Shown piece by piece: positions 23,304 to 63,485 of a stretch of 63,714 nt of DNA (position 1 is its first letter; every line of letters starts with the position of its first letter). Position numbers and translations under genes: made by a program. The stretch lies in assembly GCA_016936255.1 (NCBI GenBank), contig JAFGYE010000033.1, positions 1 through 63,714 of the forward strand, given 5' to 3'. A model generated the notes under the pieces. It was not told where the DNA came from. It searched no databases and worked only from the letters and a program-made list of their open reading frames with translations. The DNA comes from Marinifilaceae bacterium (GTDB lineage: Bacteria > Bacteroidota > Bacteroidia > Bacteroidales > Marinifilaceae).

Positions 23304-23546
23304 TTAATAACCGATTCCAGCAGCCATAATGTTGTTCGGATCGAAAGCATGGCATGGTGTTACGCCGTGCACCATATCGCATTTCGGACAATGTCCTTCA
23401 AATTCTTCCATCGTGAAGGTTTCCTTACAACCATGGCATTCAATATCCAAAGGCATTGGCATTAATTGCTGTGCAAAACCCATCATTCTTACTTTGTCAA
23501 CTACTTGTTGTCCGTTCTCGAAACTTCCTGCGCATCCGTCATGCAT
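23304..23546 (-). CDS. 80-residue Cys-rich protein, last gene of the metal-cluster operon
   Basis: Small soluble protein. I start it at the ATG at 23546 because AGGAGG lies seven bases upstream; the longer frame begins inside a repetitive spacer. Its Cys residues form a pattern of likely metal ligands: Cys5, the pair ECHGC (37 and 40), the pair CPKC (53 and 56) and TPCHAF (Cys65-His66). The two central pairs would make one zinc-ribbon or iron site. I infer that it is a scaffold, carrier or client of the GTPase and ATPase encoded upstream. I do not know a named family. Confidence 0.7.
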   Translation of the reverse strand: MHDGCAGSFENGQQVVDKVRMMGFAQQLMPMPLDIECHGCKETFTMEEFEGHCPKCDMVHGVTPCHAFDPNNIMAAGIGY

Positions 23547-23568
23547 AATTTTATCCTCCTGTTTTTTC

Positions 23569-23600
23569 AGATCTGAGATTGGAGATTTGAGATCTGAGAT
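23569..23600. repeat. short direct repeat in the operon spacer
   Basis: AGATCTGAGAT occurs at 23569-23579 and again at 23590-23600, exactly 21 bases apart, with a related GGAGATTTGAG between. It lies between the ATPase stop and the Cys-rich gene. Confidence 0.5.
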
Positions 23601-23694
23601 CCCGTCCAATTTCAATATCTTATTTTATATTTTTAATTCTTATTCAATATTATCAGTAAACGAAATGATTATTGTAAATCATCTCAAATCTCTT

Positions 23695-24723
23695 TTAAAT
23701 TCCTATGTCTTCCTTTTTAATGATTTCACCATTACGAAGTCTTGTTCTCATGTTTTGAACCACAGCATCCATACGCTCCAAATCAACCAATAGCATTCTC
23801 TCCTCATCACTGGTTTCGATCACTTTATGAATTCCACCATTTTTTATTACTATTCTTTTGTCGCCCATTAAGGCCAAAATAGGATCATGAGTAGCCATTA
23901 AAACAATTTTTTCTTCGCCAATCAGCAAGTCAAGTGCTTTTTTACGGTCGATACCGGCATTCTCAATCTCATCAATCAAAATAATCGGCGACTTACTCAA
24001 AATAGCAGTATCAGCAATCATTAATGCTCTCGATTGTCCGCCACTCAAACTTGTAATAGGAGTGGTTAACTCAAACTTTTCTCCGGCAAGCTTATTTGCT
24101 TCTTCAATTATCTTGGCAATAAGACCTTCAACATCCTCAACCAATCTACTTTGTGCATGTAATTCTAAAAACTCATAAACAGTTAGATCCATAACAAAGT
24201 TCATATTCTGAGATAGTTGAGCAACCAATTTATGTCCTGAGCTTACCCGCCACTTCTTGTCTCCCATTTCTTCATTCACCAAAATGGTTCGTGAAGTCGG
24301 AGTATCATTTTGGGCTACCCACTCAATATCGCCAAGCAATCTACTTTTTCCCGATCCGGTTGGTCCAACAATACAAACAATCTCGCTTTTTCTGATTTTT
24401 AATTCTCCAAACTGTTCCGCCTCGCCAGATTTATTGGTTCCAGGAAGAATGGTGATGCTATGAACTCCATCATCCTCATCTTCACCCAAAAATTCAAGCA
24501 TTTGTGAAATATAAGTCGTCATCGAATTCAGGAGCTGATCTTTATCAATAGCTCTGTTCTCTGCCTCCTCCTCGTCATCTAAAAACTTCAGATAATCGAC
24601 TAATTTTTCGCCAATCTGTCCATTAACTTGCAATGTATTCTCTTCAAAAAAACCTGGAAGAAAAGGATATTGCTCGAATAATTCGGCGATTGTTTTTTGT
24701 TGTATATCTTGAACTGTGATCAT
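23695..24723 (-). CDS. soluble ABC-type ATPase with an N-terminal helical domain
   Basis: Cytoplasmic ATPase of 342 residues. Residues 1-50 form a helical domain similar to that at the start of the solute-binding-like protein in this operon (TIAELFEQYPFLPGFF), followed by an acidic linker. The ABC core has Walker A GPTGSGKS (120-127), signature LSGGQ (226-230), Walker B IILIDEIE (247-254) and switch His in ATHD (279). No permease gene is present, so this is not an ordinary importer. Its dimer could power a conformational change on a partner such as the GTPase or Cys-rich protein. Function unknown; the family is clear. Confidence 0.85.
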   Translation of the reverse strand: MITVQDIQQKTIAELFEQYPFLPGFFEENTLQVNGQIGEKLVDYLKFLDDEEEAENRAIDKDQLLNSMTTYISQMLEFLGEDEDDGVHSITILPGTNKSGEAEQFGELKIRKSEIVCIVGPTGSGKSRLLGDIEWVAQNDTPTSRTILVNEEMGDKKWRVSSGHKLVAQLSQNMNFVMDLTVYEFLELHAQSRLVEDVEGLIAKIIEEANKLAGEKFELTTPITSLSGGQSRALMIADTAILSKSPIILIDEIENAGIDRKKALDLLIGEEKIVLMATHDPILALMGDKRIVIKNGGIHKVIETSDEERMLLVDLERMDAVVQNMRTRLRNGEIIKKEDIGI

Positions 24724-24757
24724 GTTTCTGCTTTTGTAATTGTTATATCGCTTTCAA

Positions 24758-24872
24758 CACCCCTCTCCCTATTGGGATCTCCCCTTAAAAAGGGAGAAAA
24801 TCCTTATTTTGCTTTCGCATCTTCGAATCGATATCTTCCCTTTCAGAGGAAGTGCCGACAGGCGAAGGGGTG
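24758..24872. repeat. imperfect inverted repeat, likely dispersed intergenic element
   Basis: A 115-bp stretch bounded by CACCCCT (24758-24764) and AGGGGTG (24866-24872). Internally there is a CCCCTT-AAAA-AGGG hairpin near 24781-24794 and a second purine/pyrimidine arm. The shape matches the palindromic, GC-richer elements scattered between Bacteroidota genes. It sits inside the four-gene operon, between ATPase and GTPase, and could act on the mRNA. Confidence 0.55.
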
Positions 24873-24904
24873 GACTCAACTTGGCGCTTTCAGCTATTAC
24901 TACT

Positions 24905-25612
24905 TTACTTTTCGCCCTTCTTGTCGCTCATATCAATCTTTCTCACATTACCCATTTGGTAACTTTCTCCAATTCTGGTTTCGCCCAAACAGTATGAACA
25001 AAGTGCTGATGGCATTGAGAATCGTAATTTTTCGCCCACCAATGTCTTTATTTCAACTTTTTCATCATAAAGCAAAGTGCTTAATTCATAAGCTCCCTGA
25101 CCCGTTAATCCATTTATGTGCATAATGCTTGCTCCAGGATTCACCTGATTTACTCTCGATGCAAACACTTCTCTTTCAGCCTGCGATACAATATCACCTT
25201 TTGTAATAATCACGATATCGGAACTCTTTAACATCGGACCAATTTTCTTTGGGGTGTTAATTCCACTTAAGTTATCGATAACACAAACAGCCGTAATACT
25301 TTTTACATAGGGCGAACAACGGTTACACAATCCGGCACTTTCCGTGATTAATAAATCCAATCCTTCCTTAATTCCCCATTGGGTTACCTCTTCAATATTA
25401 CTTACAAAATAATGATCCGGACAAAGTGAACCTGACAATCCCTTTTTCACCTTCACGCCAGCCTTTTCGTACAAAATATCATCATCTGTATATAGACAAT
25501 CAAATTTTACCACACCAACTTCTAATCCTCTCTTCTTTAACGAATCAATGGTCTTTAAAATCACCGCTGTTTTTCCTGATGAAGGAGGTCCTGAAACTGT
25601 AACTAAGTTCAT
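24905..25612 (-). CDS. HypB/CobW/UreG-like P-loop GTPase with CxxC motifs
   Basis: Soluble protein of 235 residues in the metallochaperone GTPase class. The P-loop is GPPSSGKT (8-15). The switch segment ITESAGLCNRCSP carries Cys96 and Cys99 exactly where HypB, UreG and CobW place their Glu-Ser/Asn-Gly motif, and the base-recognition motif is ITKGD (137-141). A second pair, CSYC, is at 205-208 in a C-terminal ribbon. Known relatives insert nickel, cobalt or zinc into enzymes. No hydrogenase, urease or CODH gene is in the window, so the target is open. Confidence 0.82.
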   Translation of the reverse strand: MNLVTVSGPPSSGKTAVILKTIDSLKKRGLEVGVVKFDCLYTDDDILYEKAGVKVKKGLSGSLCPDHYFVSNIEEVTQWGIKEGLDLLITESAGLCNRCSPYVKSITAVCVIDNLSGINTPKKIGPMLKSSDIVIITKGDIVSQAEREVFASRVNQVNPGASIMHINGLTGQGAYELSTLLYDEKVEIKTLVGEKLRFSMPSALCSYCLGETRIGESYQMGNVRKIDMSDKKGEK

Positions 25613-25647
25613 ATCTGATTATTTTAAAATCTGTAATTTTAGTAATA

Positions 25648-26934
25648 CTACTTCTGAGGCATATAATTCAACGGTCCCAAATTAGCAAACGATTCATCCT
25701 GAATGGACTTATTAAAAATGCGCTCACATTCCTTTATTAAAGCACCAATATCGTTACTGTTAATGTAATCCCAACCCAACCACATAAATTTATTCTCTGC
25801 AGGTAATCGGTTATCCACTTCAGGATTGATACTTGGAAACAAACCTTGATGTGAAAGAATCTCTCCTACCGCTTTCGAGGCAAAGAAATCAATAACAGGC
25901 TGCGTTTTCTCCAATCTATCTTTCTTGGTCAACATGAAAATAGGACTGATAATTGCACCATCTTCCGGCCAAACAGCTACCATTGGACCACCCACTTTCA
26001 CCATTTTGGTAAAGAAGTAAGGCATGATTGTAATAGCTGGTCGTACGTTCTTTTTGGTATGAGACTTCACCATTTGTGCAGGATGCATACTCTCCAATAA
26101 ACAAGCTCCTAAGCCTCTTACTCCCTCTTCGCCGTATGCCTTGTAAATGTGCAGCAACATCGAATTGAATAAATCAAAATCGCTGATTGGCAAACTTACA
26201 CTGCGCTTAAATTCCGGCTTAAAAATATCAGCCCATGTGCGTGGAATCGGACGATCTCCTAATTCGGCGGTATTTACCAAAAAAACTGCAGGTACAACAC
26301 CAATCATTGAATAATGTCCTTCCGGATCTTGCAAACAAATCTCATCATTGTCAAAATCCTTGTTCAAACGCTTAAAACCAGTACTGTCTTTAAAAACACC
26401 CTGCTTCTTAAATTTCCCCATCAATTTATCATCGAAGAATAAATCAAAACCTGCTGAAATAAAAATATCTGCTAAATTATCGGTGTTCTCCTGATTGATT
26501 ACATCATCGATTAACCAATCCAATCCCATCGAAGCAGCTTTCAAGTCATAAATAATCTCATTTTCATGCTCCTTCTCATACTCTTCAATGAAAGCATCAA
26601 TCCCTTCCACCAAAGGAATTCGAACCGGACAAGGCAACAACCCTTGCACATGAATAGAATCTGATTTTTGTACTTTGCTATTTTGATTCAAATCACCATC
26701 CACCGAATTTCTATTTCCATCAATTCCTTCTATCAACAAGGTAGAAAAAGTATCCACATTTAATTTTTTCATCTTCAAAGCCAATTCCAAAGAAAGAGAT
26801 TTACCAAAGACCGCTCTCTTCGCCTCATCCTCCAATTGCTTGAATCCATTTGAAACAAAAATTTTAATTGTTTCAGGGTACTTAGTACAAATATCAAGCA
26901 AACTATCCGTGGTCTTAAAATATTGATTCTTCAT
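25648..26934 (-). CDS. cytoplasmic solute-binding-like protein with N-terminal DUF1858-like domain
   Basis: First gene of the four-gene operon. I start it at the ATG at 26934; the longer frame from 26985 would run across the promoter's -7 element. Residues 1-70 form a DUF1858-like helical domain (TTDSLLDICTKYP, then FVSNGF). After a linker, residues of about 97-428 look like a type II ABC solute-binding protein of the Fe3+/thiamine class (GLDWLIDDV, YYFFT-like motifs, KSHTKKNVRPAITIMPYFF). There is no signal peptide, so it should stay in the cytoplasm, where it may bind a metal, an oxyanion or a cofactor precursor. Confidence 0.8.
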   Translation of the reverse strand: MKNQYFKTTDSLLDICTKYPETIKIFVSNGFKQLEDEAKRAVFGKSLSLELALKMKKLNVDTFSTLLIEGIDGNRNSVDGDLNQNSKVQKSDSIHVQGLLPCPVRIPLVEGIDAFIEEYEKEHENEIIYDLKAASMGLDWLIDDVINQENTDNLADIFISAGFDLFFDDKLMGKFKKQGVFKDSTGFKRLNKDFDNDEICLQDPEGHYSMIGVVPAVFLVNTAELGDRPIPRTWADIFKPEFKRSVSLPISDFDLFNSMLLHIYKAYGEEGVRGLGACLLESMHPAQMVKSHTKKNVRPAITIMPYFFTKMVKVGGPMVAVWPEDGAIISPIFMLTKKDRLEKTQPVIDFFASKAVGEILSHQGLFPSINPEVDNRLPAENKFMWLGWDYINSNDIGALIKECERIFNKSIQDESFANLGPLNYMPQK

Positions 26935-26965: not shown

Positions 26966-26973
26966 CAAATGTA
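26966..26973 (-). promoter_or_regulatory. -7 promoter element of the four-gene operon
   Basis: Perfect TACATTTG (TAnnTTTG) on the minus strand, 32 bases before the ATG at 26934. No good -33 TTG is found, which is common for promoters needing an activator. Confidence 0.65.
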
Positions 26974-26994: not shown

Positions 26995-27010
26995 TGTAAC
27001 CGATGTTACA
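26995..27010. promoter_or_regulatory. Crp/Fnr-type operator, perfect palindrome
   Basis: TGTAAC-CGAT-GTTACA is a perfect 6-4-6 palindrome. Its centre is about 40 bases upstream of the inferred start of the minus-strand operon, the classic class II activator position. The GTAAC-N4-GTTAC form is the one I recall being described for HcpR-type Crp/Fnr regulators in Bacteroidota and Clostridia. Confidence 0.72.
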
Positions 27011-29705: not shown

Positions 29706-30377
29706 ATGCTATTTCAACAACTTTCTCAATCACCCGTTTTCAGAGGAATTTCTCCTGACGAAATGGAAAATTTGCTGATCGACTCACAATATCAGATTAA
29801 GAAATTTTCGAAAGGTGACATGCTTGCCTTTCGGGAAGATCGTTGCGAAAATTTAATGATTGTTTTAAAAGGAAGTGTGAAAGGAGAAATGCTTGATCCT
29901 TCCGGGAAAAGTATTAAGATAGAAGATATAATGGCTCCCTATCCAATTGCATCAGCATTTTTATTCGGACAGAGAAATCAATTTCCGGTAAACGTAACGG
30001 CAAATGAAGAGGTAGAAGTATTCTATCTATCCAAAACCTCGGTTATTGAAATGTTTCAAAAAAATAAGGTATTTCTGACCAATTACTTAAATTCTATATC
30101 GAATAGAAGTCAGTTTTTAGCCAACAAGCTGATGTTCCTAAACTTTAAAACCATAAAAGGCAAGTTGGCCAATTATCTTCTTAAACTATCGGCTCCGGAT
30201 AAAACCGAAATTACCTTACCAAAATCTCAGGCAGAAATGGCTCTGTTTTTTGGAGTTACCCGTCCTTCTTTTGCCCGAAGCTTAAAAGAAATGGAACAGG
30301 AAGGTTTAATTGAAACCAACAGAAGAGAAATAAAAATTCTAAATAAGCAACAACTCATCCGGCTTTTGCAACAATAG
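29706..30377 (+). CDS. Crp/Fnr family transcriptional regulator
   Basis: DNA-binding regulator of 223 residues. A cyclic-nucleotide-binding-type beta barrel spans about residues 15-125 (GDMLAFREDRCENLMIVLKGSVKGE), followed by the dimerisation helix and a C-terminal winged helix-turn-helix (SQAEMALFFGVTRPSFARSLKEME). It lacks the N-terminal Cys cluster of Fnr, so it would not carry that type of Fe-S sensor; HcpR-type regulators sense NO through another cofactor. It lies upstream of a flavodiiron gene. I infer a redox or NO response, and it is a candidate binder of the operator at 26995-27010. Confidence 0.9.
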   Translation: MLFQQLSQSPVFRGISPDEMENLLIDSQYQIKKFSKGDMLAFREDRCENLMIVLKGSVKGEMLDPSGKSIKIEDIMAPYPIASAFLFGQRNQFPVNVTANEEVEVFYLSKTSVIEMFQKNKVFLTNYLNSISNRSQFLANKLMFLNFKTIKGKLANYLLKLSAPDKTEITLPKSQAEMALFFGVTRPSFARSLKEMEQEGLIETNRREIKILNKQQLIRLLQQ

Positions 30378-30576: not shown

Positions 30577-31776
30577 ATGCACAATAGAAACAACATTACT
30601 GACAAAATTTTCTGGGTAGGAACAAATGACCGAAGGACTCACTTATTTGAAAACTACTGGCCATTACCAAAAGGTGTAGCATATAACTCCTATGTTATCG
30701 TTGATGAAAAAACAGCCATTGTAGATACCGTTGAAAAAGGTACTATGGATGAATATTTGGATAACATTGCTGAGGTATTGGATGGTCGCAAAGCAGATTA
30801 TTTGATCATTAACCATATGGAACCTGATCATTCAGGATCTATTCGTTCTTTGGTTGAGCGATATCCTGAAATGAAAATAGTAGGAAACAAAAAAACCTTT
30901 CCGATGTTGGAGCGTTTCTATGGAATCAAAGAAAATCTACTTGAGGTTCAGGAAGGTGATCAAATTGACCTGGGAGAACACAAATTAGACTTCTATATGG
31001 TTCCGATGCTGCATTGGCCGGAAACCATGGTTACTTTTGAAGCCACACAAGGAATTTTATTTTCGGGTGATGCGTTTGGTGCCTTTGGAACTTTGGATGG
31101 TGGTATTTTCGATGATGAGTTGGATTTGGATTATTTGGATGAAGAAATCAGCCGTTACTATTCCAATATTGTTGGAAAGTATGGTCGTCCAACTCAAAAT
31201 GCATTGAAGAAATTAGGTGGATTGGAGATCAAAATGATTTGTGCAACCCACGGACCAATTTGGAGAAGTCACGTAGCCGATATCGTTGCCAAATACGACA
31301 AATGGAGTCAGTATAAAACCGATGAAGGTTGTGTAATCGTATATTCTTCGATGTATGGAAATACCGAAAAAATGGCTGATAACATTGCCCGCCAATTGGT
31401 TAAAAAAGGAATTAAGAAAGTTCGTATTCACGATTCTTCAAAAACACATCCATCTTATATCATCAACGATATTTTTAAATATCGTGGTGTAATTTTAGGT
31501 TCTTGTGCTTATAATGGTGATGTTTTCCCAACCATGGAAACCCTGATTAATGAATTGGAGCACATGGCTATTAAAGATCACGTTTTAGGCGTATTCGGTT
31601 CCAAATCATGGGGAGGCGGCGGATTAAAACGCCTGAATAAATTTGCCGAAGAAATTAAATGGGAAACTATTGAAGCTACACCGGAAGCTCTTTGTGCTCC
31701 TAACTCTGAAGATTTCGATCAATGCGAAGCTTTGGCTGAAGGAATGGCAAGCCGATTAAAAGAACTTTACAAATAG
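30577..31776 (+). CDS. fprA: flavodiiron protein (FprA / A-type flavoprotein)
   Basis: Cytoplasmic enzyme of 399 residues that reduces O2 to water and/or NO to N2O. The N-terminal metallo-beta-lactamase-like half holds the di-iron ligands: HMEPDH (His80, Glu82, Asp84, His85), HW in VPMLHWPETM, FSGDAFGAFG (Asp) and ATHGPIW (His). The C-terminal half is a flavodoxin domain starting at CVIVYSSMYGNTEKMADNIA, which binds FMN. There is no extra rubredoxin domain, so it needs an outside electron donor. It is preceded by a Crp/Fnr gene on the same strand, which suggests anaerobic oxidative or nitrosative stress defence. Confidence 0.95.
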   Translation: MHNRNNITDKIFWVGTNDRRTHLFENYWPLPKGVAYNSYVIVDEKTAIVDTVEKGTMDEYLDNIAEVLDGRKADYLIINHMEPDHSGSIRSLVERYPEMKIVGNKKTFPMLERFYGIKENLLEVQEGDQIDLGEHKLDFYMVPMLHWPETMVTFEATQGILFSGDAFGAFGTLDGGIFDDELDLDYLDEEISRYYSNIVGKYGRPTQNALKKLGGLEIKMICATHGPIWRSHVADIVAKYDKWSQYKTDEGCVIVYSSMYGNTEKMADNIARQLVKKGIKKVRIHDSSKTHPSYIINDIFKYRGVILGSCAYNGDVFPTMETLINELEHMAIKDHVLGVFGSKSWGGGGLKRLNKFAEEIKWETIEATPEALCAPNSEDFDQCEALAEGMASRLKELYK

Positions 31777-59499: not shown

Positions 59500-60045
59500 A
59501 TGAAAAGGATTAAAAGGAACATACTATTAATTGCAGGAACTGGCCGAAATGTTGGGAAAACTTTATTTGCATGCCGATTAATCGAAGAATTGAGATGCAA
59601 AAATAAGCTTGTCTGCATTAAAGTATCGCCTCACTTTCATGATTTAAACGCCGGTTTGAAAATCATTCAGGAAACAGAAAATTTTGTAATTTCGAAAGAA
59701 ATCAATGAAACCGGCAGTAAAGATAGTAACCGAATGTTTCGATCTGGAAGCAAAGAGGTGTATTACGTTCAGGCTAAAGATGATTATCTTCATGAAGTAC
59801 TCTCTTATTTTGAAAAAACACTATCACCCGAAACTCCAATAATCTGTGAATCGGGAGGTTTAAGAGACTTAATTGAGCCCGGACTTTTTTTAATGATCAA
59901 TAAAAAAAATAATAACAACATAAAACCCCGAGCTGTTGGCTACAGAAAATTAGCAGACAAATGGATTGAATTTAACGGTGAGGAATTTGATTTTACTGCA
60001 AAAAAAATTGCTTTTACTACTAATGGCTGGGAAATAAAAAACTAA
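59500..60045 (+). CDS. MobB-like P-loop protein of molybdopterin biosynthesis
   Basis: Nucleotide-binding protein of 181 residues, first gene of the Moco operon. The P-loop GTGRNVGKT is at 13-21, followed by the helix FACRLIEEL. A conserved His-rich strand (KVSPHFHDL) and CESGGLRDLIEPGLFLM resemble MobB, which helps attach a nucleotide to molybdopterin. The C-terminal half is less similar, so I call it MobB-like. It ends four bases before moeA. Confidence 0.72.
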   Translation: MKRIKRNILLIAGTGRNVGKTLFACRLIEELRCKNKLVCIKVSPHFHDLNAGLKIIQETENFVISKEINETGSKDSNRMFRSGSKEVYYVQAKDDYLHEVLSYFEKTLSPETPIICESGGLRDLIEPGLFLMINKKNNNNIKPRAVGYRKLADKWIEFNGEEFDFTAKKIAFTTNGWEIKN

Positions 60046-60049
60046 CAAT

Positions 60050-61225
60050 ATGATTACGTTTCACGAGGCTTTAAAAACTGTGAAAAATGCCACTAAAAAG
60101 TTGGATGCCGAAAATATCAATCTTGCTGATTGTTTGAATCGGGTTCTTGCACAAGATGTTCTTTCAGACATGTCTATTCCTCCATTTAATAAATCGGCCA
60201 TGGATGGATATGCCTGCAAACAATCTGATTTGGCAAACAATCTTGAAGTTTTAGAAATTATTGCGGCAGGTTATGCTCCAAGCAAAGCTGTCGGAAACAA
60301 TCAGTGTTCCAAAATTATGACTGGAGCTATGGTGCCGGAAGGTGCCGATACAGTAATCATGATTGAACACACCGAAGAAATTGATGACAATCACATCCGA
60401 TTTACAAAAGAAAAAACAAAACCGAACATTTGCCTTAAAGGGGAAGATATTTTAGAAAATGATGTTGTTCTAAAGAGAGGAACCCGATTAAAAGCACAGC
60501 ACATTTCTGTATTGGCAAGTGTTGGCTGTACAAATCCTCTTGTTTTCAGACAACCAAAAGTAGCAACAATTGCAACCGGAAGCGAATTGGTTGAACCAGA
60601 TCAAAAACCTGAAATATCCCAAATCCGAAATGTAAACTCATGGCAATTACAAGCTCAGTTGCAAAAAATGGGCATTAAGGGCAATAGTCTCGGAATTGTT
60701 TCTGATTCGAAAGAGGCTACCAAGGAAGCAATGGTAAAATGTTTGGAAGAGAATGATGTTCTTATCATATCAGGTGGCGTTTCGGTTGGTGACTTCGATT
60801 ATATTCCTCAAATTCTAAAAGAACTTGGTTTCAATATTTGGTTTCATTCAATCATGGTTAAACCCGGAAAACATACCGTTTTTGCGACCTGCAAGGAGAA
60901 ATATGTTTTAGGTTTACCTGGAAATCCGGTTTCCTCATTTGTACAATTTGAATTACTCGGCAAACCATTACTTTATCGACTTATGGGACATGATTACAAC
61001 GCTCCGATGGTACGAATGCCAATTGCTTCAGATTACCAGCGAAAAAGAACCGACAGGCTTGAATTTTTGCCTGTTCGCTTTAATGCAGACAATCAGGTTG
61101 TGCCTATTAGCTATCATGGTTCGGCACACATTAATGCTTTTACTTTAGCCAATGGAATTATGGCAGTTCCAAGGGAAGTTGATGAATTTACGGAAGGAGA
61201 ATTTGTTCATGTTAGACAATTATAA
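60050..61225 (+). CDS. moeA: molybdopterin molybdenumtransferase MoeA
   Basis: Enzyme of 391 residues, the normal length, that inserts molybdate into adenylated molybdopterin. The first domain has the signature NKSAMDGYACKQSDL (early Asp/Lys). The MogA-like core contains TIATGSELVEP, SGGVSVGDFDYI and LPGNPVSSFVQFE. The C-terminal domain IV is present (LPVRFNADNQVVP). It overlaps the moaA start by 17 bases. Confidence 0.95.
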   Translation: MITFHEALKTVKNATKKLDAENINLADCLNRVLAQDVLSDMSIPPFNKSAMDGYACKQSDLANNLEVLEIIAAGYAPSKAVGNNQCSKIMTGAMVPEGADTVIMIEHTEEIDDNHIRFTKEKTKPNICLKGEDILENDVVLKRGTRLKAQHISVLASVGCTNPLVFRQPKVATIATGSELVEPDQKPEISQIRNVNSWQLQAQLQKMGIKGNSLGIVSDSKEATKEAMVKCLEENDVLIISGGVSVGDFDYIPQILKELGFNIWFHSIMVKPGKHTVFATCKEKYVLGLPGNPVSSFVQFELLGKPLLYRLMGHDYNAPMVRMPIASDYQRKRTDRLEFLPVRFNADNQVVPISYHGSAHINAFTLANGIMAVPREVDEFTEGEFVHVRQL

Positions 61226-62009
61226 TAGAAACATAAATTACCTGCGAATCTCGGTTACGGATCGCTGCAATCTTCGATGTACTTATTGTATGCCCGAGAA
61301 AGGTATTGATTTAATGGCTCACGATGAAGTATTGAGCTTTGAGCAGATTGCCGATTTTGCAAAGGAAGCAGTAGCAAACGGAATCAGTAAAATAAGACTG
61401 ACCGGTGGTGAACCTCTGGTTAGAAAAGGTATTGTTGATTTGGTGAAATTACTTTCTGATATTTCCGGAATTGAGGAAATTGCCATGACCACTAATGGCA
61501 TATTACTTGATCAGTTTGCTGATCAATTAGCCAAAGCCGGATTACAAAGGGTGAACATTAGTTTAGATACGCTCAATCCTGAAAAATATAAAAAAATAAC
61601 CCGACTGGGTGATATTGAAGATGTTTTTAAAGGAATTAAAGCAGCTCAAAAGGCTGGGTTGCATCCCGTAAAAATAAACTGCGTTCGAATGCTTGATGCA
61701 GATTTGGATGACCTAGAAAATTTACGCCAATTTTGCAAGAGTAATCATCTGGAATTACGATTCATTAAACAAATGGATTTAGCTACTGGGGAATTCTCTG
61801 TTGTTGAAGGTGGCAAAGGAGGTAACTGTTTGGAATGCAACCGAATTAGGCTTACAGCCAATGGAAAAGTAAAACCCTGCTTGTTCAATGCCAGTGAATT
61901 CGACATTAAAGAATTAGGTAATAAACAAGCAATCAATAAATCGATCAACCAAAAACCAAAAGCCGGCACAAAAAATAAAAACGGCAGTTTTTACGGAATC
62001 GGAGGATAA
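61209..62009 (+). CDS. moaA: GTP 3',8-cyclase MoaA (radical SAM), short form
   Basis: Radical S-adenosylmethionine enzyme that starts Moco synthesis from GTP. The start is the ATG at 61209, giving LRISVTDRC close to the N-terminus; the frame from 61152 adds residues inside moeA. The first cluster is CNLRCTYC. The second cluster has the expected spacing C-x2-C-x13-C (GNCLECNRIRLTANGKVKPC), and the C-terminal GG is present. The protein is only about 266 residues against about 330 in E. coli: the segment between the two clusters is shortened, as seen in many Bacteroidota. Confidence 0.93.
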   Translation: MLDNYNRNINYLRISVTDRCNLRCTYCMPEKGIDLMAHDEVLSFEQIADFAKEAVANGISKIRLTGGEPLVRKGIVDLVKLLSDISGIEEIAMTTNGILLDQFADQLAKAGLQRVNISLDTLNPEKYKKITRLGDIEDVFKGIKAAQKAGLHPVKINCVRMLDADLDDLENLRQFCKSNHLELRFIKQMDLATGEFSVVEGGKGGNCLECNRIRLTANGKVKPCLFNASEFDIKELGNKQAINKSINQKPKAGTKNKNGSFYGIGG

Positions 62010-62072
62010 ATTTAAAACAGAGATCAGTTACCCCTGAGCAATGAATAATGATAAGAAAACAACTTTAAATTG

Positions 62073-62531
62073 ATGGGAGAATTTAGTCATATAGACAAAG
62101 ATGGGAAAGCCAATATGGTTGATGTGGGTCATAAAGCTCCGCAAATAAGAGAAGCCAAAGCTGTTGGCATCATCTATTTAAAAGCCCGAACCATCGAATT
62201 AATTAAAGAAAATGCGCTAAAAAAAGGCGATGTATTGACTATTGCCGAAATAGCCGGTATTCAGGCAGCTAAACGCACAAGCGATTTAATTCCCTTATGT
62301 CATACACTTCAGATTACCAAAGCTGAAGTAAAATGCAGCATTATAGAGAAGGGTGTTCAGGTAAATACCCGGATAAAATGCATTGGACAAACGGGAGTAG
62401 AAATGGAAGCGTTAACCGCTGCCAGCATCGCTCTGCTAACCATTTACGATATGTGTAAAGCTGTTGATAAATCAATGGTGTTAGGCGAAATTGCGCTTGT
62501 AGAAAAAACAAAAACCGATTTGAAGCAATAA
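62073..62531 (+). CDS. moaC: cyclic pyranopterin monophosphate synthase MoaC
   Basis: Partner of MoaA, about 152 residues from the ATG at 62073 (a TTG precedes it). The active-site segments are present: the conserved VDVGHK region, the LIPLCHTL loop (most family members have LCHP, here Thr) and TGVEMEALTAASIALLTIYDMCKAVDK with the catalytic Lys. The Pro-to-Thr change lies beside the conserved His and is worth noting, but the protein looks functional. Confidence 0.94.
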   Translation: MGEFSHIDKDGKANMVDVGHKAPQIREAKAVGIIYLKARTIELIKENALKKGDVLTIAEIAGIQAAKRTSDLIPLCHTLQITKAEVKCSIIEKGVQVNTRIKCIGQTGVEMEALTAASIALLTIYDMCKAVDKSMVLGEIALVEKTKTDLKQ

Positions 62532-62537
62532 AACACG

Positions 62538-63485
62538 ATGAGCATGAGCACAAAAGAAGTATCAGTACTATCTGTAAATATATCTGAAAAAAAAGGAGTA
62601 ATCAAAAAGCCTGTTGATTCCATAGAATTGCATTCTCTTGGTGTTGTAAATGATGCACATTCGGGAAACTGGCACCGTCAGGTTAGCTTGCTGGCCAAAG
62701 AAAGTATCGATAAATTTTCGGTACAAGCCAAACGCAATATCAATTTTGGAGAATTTGCCGAGAATATTACCACCGAAGGACTTTTACTTCATTTGACTGC
62801 TCCACTTGATCGTTTCCACATAGGTGACATGATTTTGGAAGTAACTCAGATTGGTAAAAAATGCCATGGAGACAACTGCAGTATTTTTCGTGAAATAGGA
62901 AACTGTGTAATGCCAAAAGAAGGTATTTTTTGCAGAGTTTTAAACGGAGGTAATTTAAAAGCCGGTGATGTTCTTTGCTATCATCCAAGAGTAATAAAAA
63001 CCATGGTAATCACTCTTAGCGACAGAGCCAGCCGAGGTGAATATGCTGATAAAAGCGGTCCGTTACTGGAGAAATTAGCTGAAGAATTCTTCAAATCGAA
63101 AAACCGGCATTATCAAATAGAAAAATTCATTATTCCTGATCAAGAATTTGATCTTACCAATCTACTTGAAAAAGCAAAAGAGGAAGATTTTGATCTTGTA
63201 TTCACTACAGGTGGAACAGGTATTGGACCAAAAGACATTACTCCTGATGTAGTAAAAAAACACATCACAAAAGAGATAACCGGAATTATGGAATTGATTC
63301 GGGTAAAATATGGAATGGAAAAGCCAAATGCATTGGTTAGTCGTGGCATTGCAGGTGTTATGAATAAAACTCTAATTTATACCATGCCTGGTAGTCCAAA
63401 AGCCGTAAATGAATACTGCTCGGAGATTTTTAAGACGATTGAACACTCACTTTACATGATGAATGAGTTGGATATTCATGGCTAA
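62538..63485 (+). CDS. MOSC domain fused to MogA/MoaB-type molybdopterin adenylyltransferase
   Basis: Two-domain protein of 315 residues. The N-terminal MOSC domain (about 1-150) has HSGNWHRQVSLL and a cysteine-bearing KKCHGDNCSIF region, the place where MOSC proteins hold a sulfur or bind molybdenum cofactor. The C-terminal MogA/MoaB domain (about 155-315) holds ITLSDRASRGEYADKSGPLL, TTGGTGIGPKDITPD and MPGSPKAVNEY, the residues for adenylating molybdopterin. MogA works with MoeA, the gene three places upstream. It starts six bases after moaC. Confidence 0.93.
   Translation: MSMSTKEVSVLSVNISEKKGVIKKPVDSIELHSLGVVNDAHSGNWHRQVSLLAKESIDKFSVQAKRNINFGEFAENITTEGLLLHLTAPLDRFHIGDMILEVTQIGKKCHGDNCSIFREIGNCVMPKEGIFCRVLNGGNLKAGDVLCYHPRVIKTMVITLSDRASRGEYADKSGPLLEKLAEEFFKSKNRHYQIEKFIIPDQEFDLTNLLEKAKEEDFDLVFTTGGTGIGPKDITPDVVKKHITKEITGIMELIRVKYGMEKPNALVSRGIAGVMNKTLIYTMPGSPKAVNEYCSEIFKTIEHSLYMMNELDIHG

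Follow-up and report, generated by a model that had tools for sequence, protein, structure and literature searches.

A putative cytoplasmic metal-handling operon of a Marinifilaceae bacterium as a probable member of the Hcp/HcpR nitric-oxide response

The contig JAFGYE010000033.1 of a Marinifilaceae bacterium, 63,714 nucleotides long and analysed here in full as the window, carries a minus-strand operon at positions 23304-26934. It encodes a DUF1858-containing solute-binding protein (SBP), a GTPase, a soluble ATP-binding cassette (ABC) ATPase, and a small cysteine-rich protein (Cys protein). We propose that this operon partners the hybrid cluster protein Hcp, is switched on together with hcp by the regulator HcpR2, and delivers metal, most likely to the hybrid cluster; we give this reading a probability of about 0.5. 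Its membership in the Hcp/HcpR nitric-oxide (NO) response is strongly supported by sequence evidence. The mechanism we favour, with odds of about one in two, is iron carriage by the operon to assemble or repair the hybrid cluster, the unusual iron centre of Hcp. A first-pass annotation, made from the letters of the window, had described the four genes as a metal- or cofactor-insertion machine, and missed both the HcpR2 regulon and the likely client, Hcp.

The operator TGTAACATCGGTTACA (26995-27010, minus strand) has perfect arms and is located about 60 bp before the start of the SBP gene. It is a perfect match to the HcpR2 consensus GTAACnnnnGTTAC given in the consulted part of the work of Rodionov and colleagues (PMC1274295). 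In the 12-base form, to which the operator counts in the source genome apply, there are exactly two perfect copies, one in front of the operon (C99:26995-27010) and one (C64:26432-26447) situated 139 bp upstream of hcp, a gene present once in the genome. The base frequencies of the window predict about 0.5 perfect copies per genome and 2e-5 per 200-bp promoter. When up to two mismatches are allowed, the pattern is not enriched in the source genome (252 places versus 369 for the reversed control), and six places have one mismatch; the perfect copies alone carry the evidential weight.

The consensus of the Bacteroidota -7 element is TAnnTTTG, and an element of this type, TACATTTG (26966-26973, minus strand), is positioned 37 nt downstream of the operator start. 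The promoter and operator named in the first-pass annotation correspond to these elements. The 37-nt spacing is kept in all 17 Marinifilaceae pieces that contain the promoter (L021 does not), with differing bases in between. At the hcp promoter of the source genome, CATCTTTG, which has one mismatch, occupies the same offset from the operator start. The operator is therefore centred near -41, where Crp/Fnr activators usually bind, and the predicted promoter geometry of the operon fits an activator.

A Crp/Fnr-family regulator with a TRPS recognition helix is encoded at 29706-30377 on the plus strand. The gene is located on the opposite strand, 2.8 kb past the start of the operon and separated from it by one gene, and its product is likely to be HcpR. 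Going by CRP numbering, we take TRPS to stand at the position diagnostic of HcpR2. The RPS residues are present in 20 of 22 Crp/Fnr rows from pieces of relatives. The regulator of L082 has RET instead of RPS, and the best SBP site there has three mismatches; both Tepidibacter pieces have an RPS regulator, yet a one-mismatch site. HcpR2 has proline in place of Glu181, and an Arg-Pro pair is reported in the part of the regulon study available to us (PMC1274295). No HcpR2 site was detected within 300 bases before the regulator gene. An FprA-type flavodiiron gene (30577-31776) adjoins the HcpR-like gene. It was rejected as a regulon member, as the 199-base gap to the preceding gene contains no HcpR2 site (the best candidate has four mismatches). 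To judge by its sequence, the operon resembles the HcpR2 regulon (hcp, frdX) in its operator, RPS-type regulator, and hcp neighbourhood. The predicted HcpR2 regulons in the consulted text, including those of most Bacteroides, P. gingivalis, and F. nucleatum, do not name the operon (PMC1274295).

The relatives compared here are the best 80 of 409, picked by GTPase similarity alone, and the sample leans toward near ones. Hcp is encoded in 22 of the 62 non-Marinifilaceae pieces; by their record titles, these 22 represent spirochaetes, Cloacimonadota, Fusobacteria (L036, with Hcp 8 kb away), several Bacillota, and one unplaced bacterium. It was not found in the Marinifilaceae pieces, and in the source genome it is linked to the operon via the shared site alone. 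For a fairer comparison, two further sets of genomes were drawn by phylum, each including one carrier that served as the chosen centre. The first, from the phylum of Schnuerera sp. L059 (taken as Bacillota_A), comprises 199 genomes, six of which carry a close GTPase (at least 74% identity). All six encode full-length Hcp, within about 5 kb in five of them. Hcp occurs in 146 of the 199 genomes, and its mere presence in this draw alone is not significant (p 0.15). The second draw, of 198 genomes from the phylum of spirochaete L050, holds eight carriers (one split over two contigs), seven with Hcp and six with it within about 3 kb, and 56 of the 190 non-carriers encode Hcp. When the draws are pooled and the centre genomes removed, Hcp is present in 11 of 12 carriers versus 196 of 383 others (p 0.005). 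A Bacteroidota draw contains a GTPase relative in 19 of 296 genomes, 18 of them with Hcp; source genome apart, these GTPases are of a more distant kind (62-66% identity), and the draw therefore says little about the module.

The only Prismane match of the source genome is Hcp, presumably of class I, as we assume from its cysteine spacing; no nickel-containing carbon monoxide dehydrogenase (Ni-CODH) was found there. An Hcp tree was built from 61 proteins, after four short sequences and one duplicate had been removed from an initial 66. On it, the carrier label needs 9 changes, at least four of them forced, versus a shuffled mean of about 20.5. The clustering of carriers is partly raised by near-copies, and the tree rules out the module as a marker of one Hcp sequence clade. 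A small cupin gene precedes the SBP gene in L025, L026, L030, L034, L040, L042, L081, and L145 (by eye in L145). A cupin adjoining hcp is NO-induced in Desulfovibrio desulfuricans, according to the portion consulted of PMC5701242.

Rare co-occurrence of the four families would, according to the first-pass annotation, have spoken against its reading; instead, the gene set co-occurs beyond chance, in records of several phyla. The order SBP-GTPase-ABC is kept in 77 of the 80 relatives, and in the remaining three the GTPase gene starts no more than 225 bases from where the piece ends. The full set of four is in order in 66 of the 80. Over 87 loci (those 80 plus seven from later draws), 69 have the Cys gene and 12 lack it, including all seven from later draws; six were not judgeable, and the gene is thus missing from 12 of 81 judgeable loci. 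The four minus-strand genes in a row are confirmed by open reading frame coordinates and Pfam, and as a unit they recur widely, with the Cys protein as an accessory member outside the invariant core.

The SBP (25648-26934, minus strand, 428 residues) is composed of Pfam DUF1858 and SBP_bac_6 domains. The start at 26934 is preferred because an alternative 445-residue start (26985) falls upstream of the promoter element. The protein has no hydrophobic N-terminal stretch (the best 15-residue mean hydropathy starting within the first 60 residues is 0.96), and there is no permease gene in or beside the operon; both the cytoplasmic location and the missing permease agree with the first-pass annotation. 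Ordinary ABC import was rejected for the lack of a permease and of a signal peptide. The fold of the binding domain is closest to ferric-binding proteins, with about 12% identity to FbpA/FutA in a VIA-align comparison. FbpA and FutA share this overall fold and differ from the SBP, which is cytoplasmic, has the N-terminal DUF1858 domain, and has no permease in its operon. Residues C102, H284, M288, and Y306 are invariant, and we assume from the residue offset alone that Cys102 is near an FbpA iron ligand.

The GTPase (24905-25612, minus strand, 235 residues, Pfam cobW) is identical to that of Labilibaculum euxinus, which marks the source as a Labilibaculum-type genome. It contains a GPPSSGKT P-loop, a TKGD motif, and the cysteine motifs CPDH (64-67), CNRC (96-99), and CSYC (205-208). 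Residues C64 and H67 align with the Cys-His pair of E. coli HypB, with two residues inserted between; in the HypB G domain, this pair is a metal motif. The assignment to the HypB/UreG class stands, with scores below the curated cut-offs of HypB TIGR00073 (47.5 bits, or 48.7 in the genome search, against 121.2) and UreG TIGR00101 (29.8 bits against 204.2). The ABC ATPase (23695-24723, minus strand, 342 residues, Pfam ABC_tran) carries the Walker A, LSGGQ, Walker B, and H-loop motifs, and its N-terminal 75 or so residues bear a modest resemblance to DUF1858. Between the GTPase and ABC genes, positions 24725-24904 form a repeat-like stretch, and the gap length differs among Marinifilaceae relatives.

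The Cys protein (23304-23546, minus strand, 80 residues) has an MHDGC start, which varies in a few relatives (for example, MHSGC), a PCHAF motif, and the two CxxC pairs noted in the first-pass annotation. Its Pfam matches are all sub-threshold, the best being HypA PF01155 (19.8 bits, gathering cut-off 28.9). The MH[DE] start and two CxxC pairs are common to this protein and E. coli HypA. HypA homology was not supported: in a fold search with a confident model, the best PDB match has an E-value of 0.77, HypA is not among the 50 fold matches listed, and no match counts.

The GTPase class and the HypA-like start and CxxC pairs could indicate a nickel-insertion system of the Hyp, Ure, or Coo type, acting on hydrogenase, urease, or CO dehydrogenase. 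We consider this extremely unlikely, as the proteins score under the HypB, UreG, and HypA cut-offs, and the source genome has no HypB above the cut-off and Hcp as its single Prismane protein (urease itself was not searched for). Maturation of hydrogenase or CODH was rejected for this genome. The GTPase and Cys protein further differ from HypA/HypB in having an FbpA-fold carrier and a soluble ABC ATPase as companions and in their link to Hcp. CooC, CooJ, and CooT would serve the same enzyme superfamily, as Hcp and Ni-CODH are both Prismane proteins; they belong to protein families other than those of the operon, and the source genome lacks a detectable Ni-CODH. For the pathways tested, the earlier statement that the operon matches no named system holds.

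The CxxC pairs would also suit a redox partner, that is, the missing electron donor of class I Hcp, a donor described as unknown in the part available to us of PMC10210160. However, flavin, haem, and ferredoxin families were not found in the four proteins in a Pfam scan at E up to 0.1, and two NTPases are ill-suited to electron transfer, so that this role is highly improbable.

We hypothesize that NO activates HcpR2, which would bind near -41 and turn on hcp and the operon together. The cytoplasmic SBP, with its ferric-binding fold, may hold iron, or a complex of it, in a site to which Cys102 contributes. The GTPase, with a Cys/His metal site of its own, and the ABC ATPase could dock through DUF1858-type domains, and GTP and ATP would be spent on passing the metal onward, assisted by the small Cys protein where it is present. 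The recipient would most likely be the hybrid cluster of newly made or NO-damaged Hcp. The insertion machine of the first-pass annotation is supported as a cytoplasmic metal- or cofactor-handling set; the metal transfer itself we infer.

Several observations weigh against Hcp as the recipient of iron from the operon. A search covering the genomes behind 50 of the 62 non-Marinifilaceae loci found Hcp in 41, with 40 above the cut-off. The nine in which it was not found have no Prismane protein above the cut-off; three are Aminicenantes, four are spirochaetes, and the other two are small genomes of 1.5 and 1.2 Mb. These cases are therefore gaps in incomplete genomes or a sign of more than one client; in the Aminicenantes piece L032, whose genome has no detected Hcp, a perfect HcpR2 site still precedes the operon. 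One of 33 SBPs weakly matches ScdA, an iron-sulfur repair protein, and NifS/NifU-like genes, named by eye, lie upstream of the operon in divergent orientation in L033, L035, L046, and L048, all from spirochaetes. These points favour the main rival, a general NO-damage repair or iron-recycling system that would re-metallate many NO-hit iron centres, much as YtfE/RIC but driven by nucleotides; Hcp would then be a co-regulated neighbour and not the sole client. However, the adjacency of Hcp across several phyla suggests a specific tie, and the perfect site in the source genome is shared with hcp alone. YtfE, RIC, and ScdA are likewise linked to NO; they differ from the nucleotide-driven operon set, and a Pfam scan of the four proteins found no di-iron hemerythrin domain. 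We regard general repair as unlikely, although well short of negligible.

The last opposing point is that the SBP profile search gives similarity to aminoethylphosphonate binders and names no iron family. The SBP might act as a buffer for iron or for a different ligand (a phosphonate-like anion, for example) and hand it to storage or to a permease whose gene is elsewhere. The FbpA-like fold and the importers that adjoin related modules are compatible with such sequestration or transport. The missing permease and signal peptide and the tie of the operon to hcp argue against it, and we consider it quite improbable.

The link between the operon and Hcp appears to be new. In the parts of the publications available to us, class I and III hcp are often isolated genes without a syntenic partner (Lemaire and colleagues, PMC10210160), and in a 2026 study covering 1476 HCP genes, the neighbours were too diverse to interpret and 49% of class I genes had none (PMC13056359). 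The literature, as far as it was accessible to us, yielded no description of the operon and no account of how the hybrid cluster is made, and names the wider carrier-GTPase-ATPase module family nowhere. A conserved, co-regulated partner set makes hybrid-cluster assembly directly testable. Many oxygen-avoiding bacteria carry the set beside, or under the same switch as, the NO-detoxifying Hcp. If metal delivery to Hcp is correct, binding-protein and ABC-ATPase parts would have a new use, in metal delivery inside the cell rather than in membrane transport.

In a quick GTPase tree with 95 rows (matches shorter than 200 residues excluded), the close kind forms one side of a branch with an SH-aLRT of 99. 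Hcp is nearby in 26 of 71 close-kind rows versus none of 24 rows of other kinds. According to Pfam, the other kinds adjoin Peripla_BP_2 and/or FecCD proteins (L087, L090, L091, L093, L095), DUF364 (L093), and an Fe-S protein (L003 and L101); further neighbours were named by eye or via BLAST to the L003 Fe-S protein. Related SBP-GTPase-ATPase modules occur in L086, L087, and L090-L100, several beside FecCD/Peripla_BP_2, other ABC importers, or methyltransferases, and such modules apparently form a wider undescribed family. We tentatively suggest that class I Hcp has a dedicated NO-induced maturation machine that loads iron, as one branch of this family, whose members may each serve a metal enzyme or importer of their own.

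The source genome has a second module on contig C66 (L003:8536-10849), with an ABC ATPase, a GTPase (about 43% identical), and a PF04060 Fe-S protein, and without an SBP. The same set recurs in L101-L103 and L105-L109. At 59500-63485, the window contains molybdenum cofactor genes, named by eye as MobB, MoeA, MoaA, MoaC, and MogA-like; the MoaA frame is short (285 residues) and overlaps the end of MoeA.

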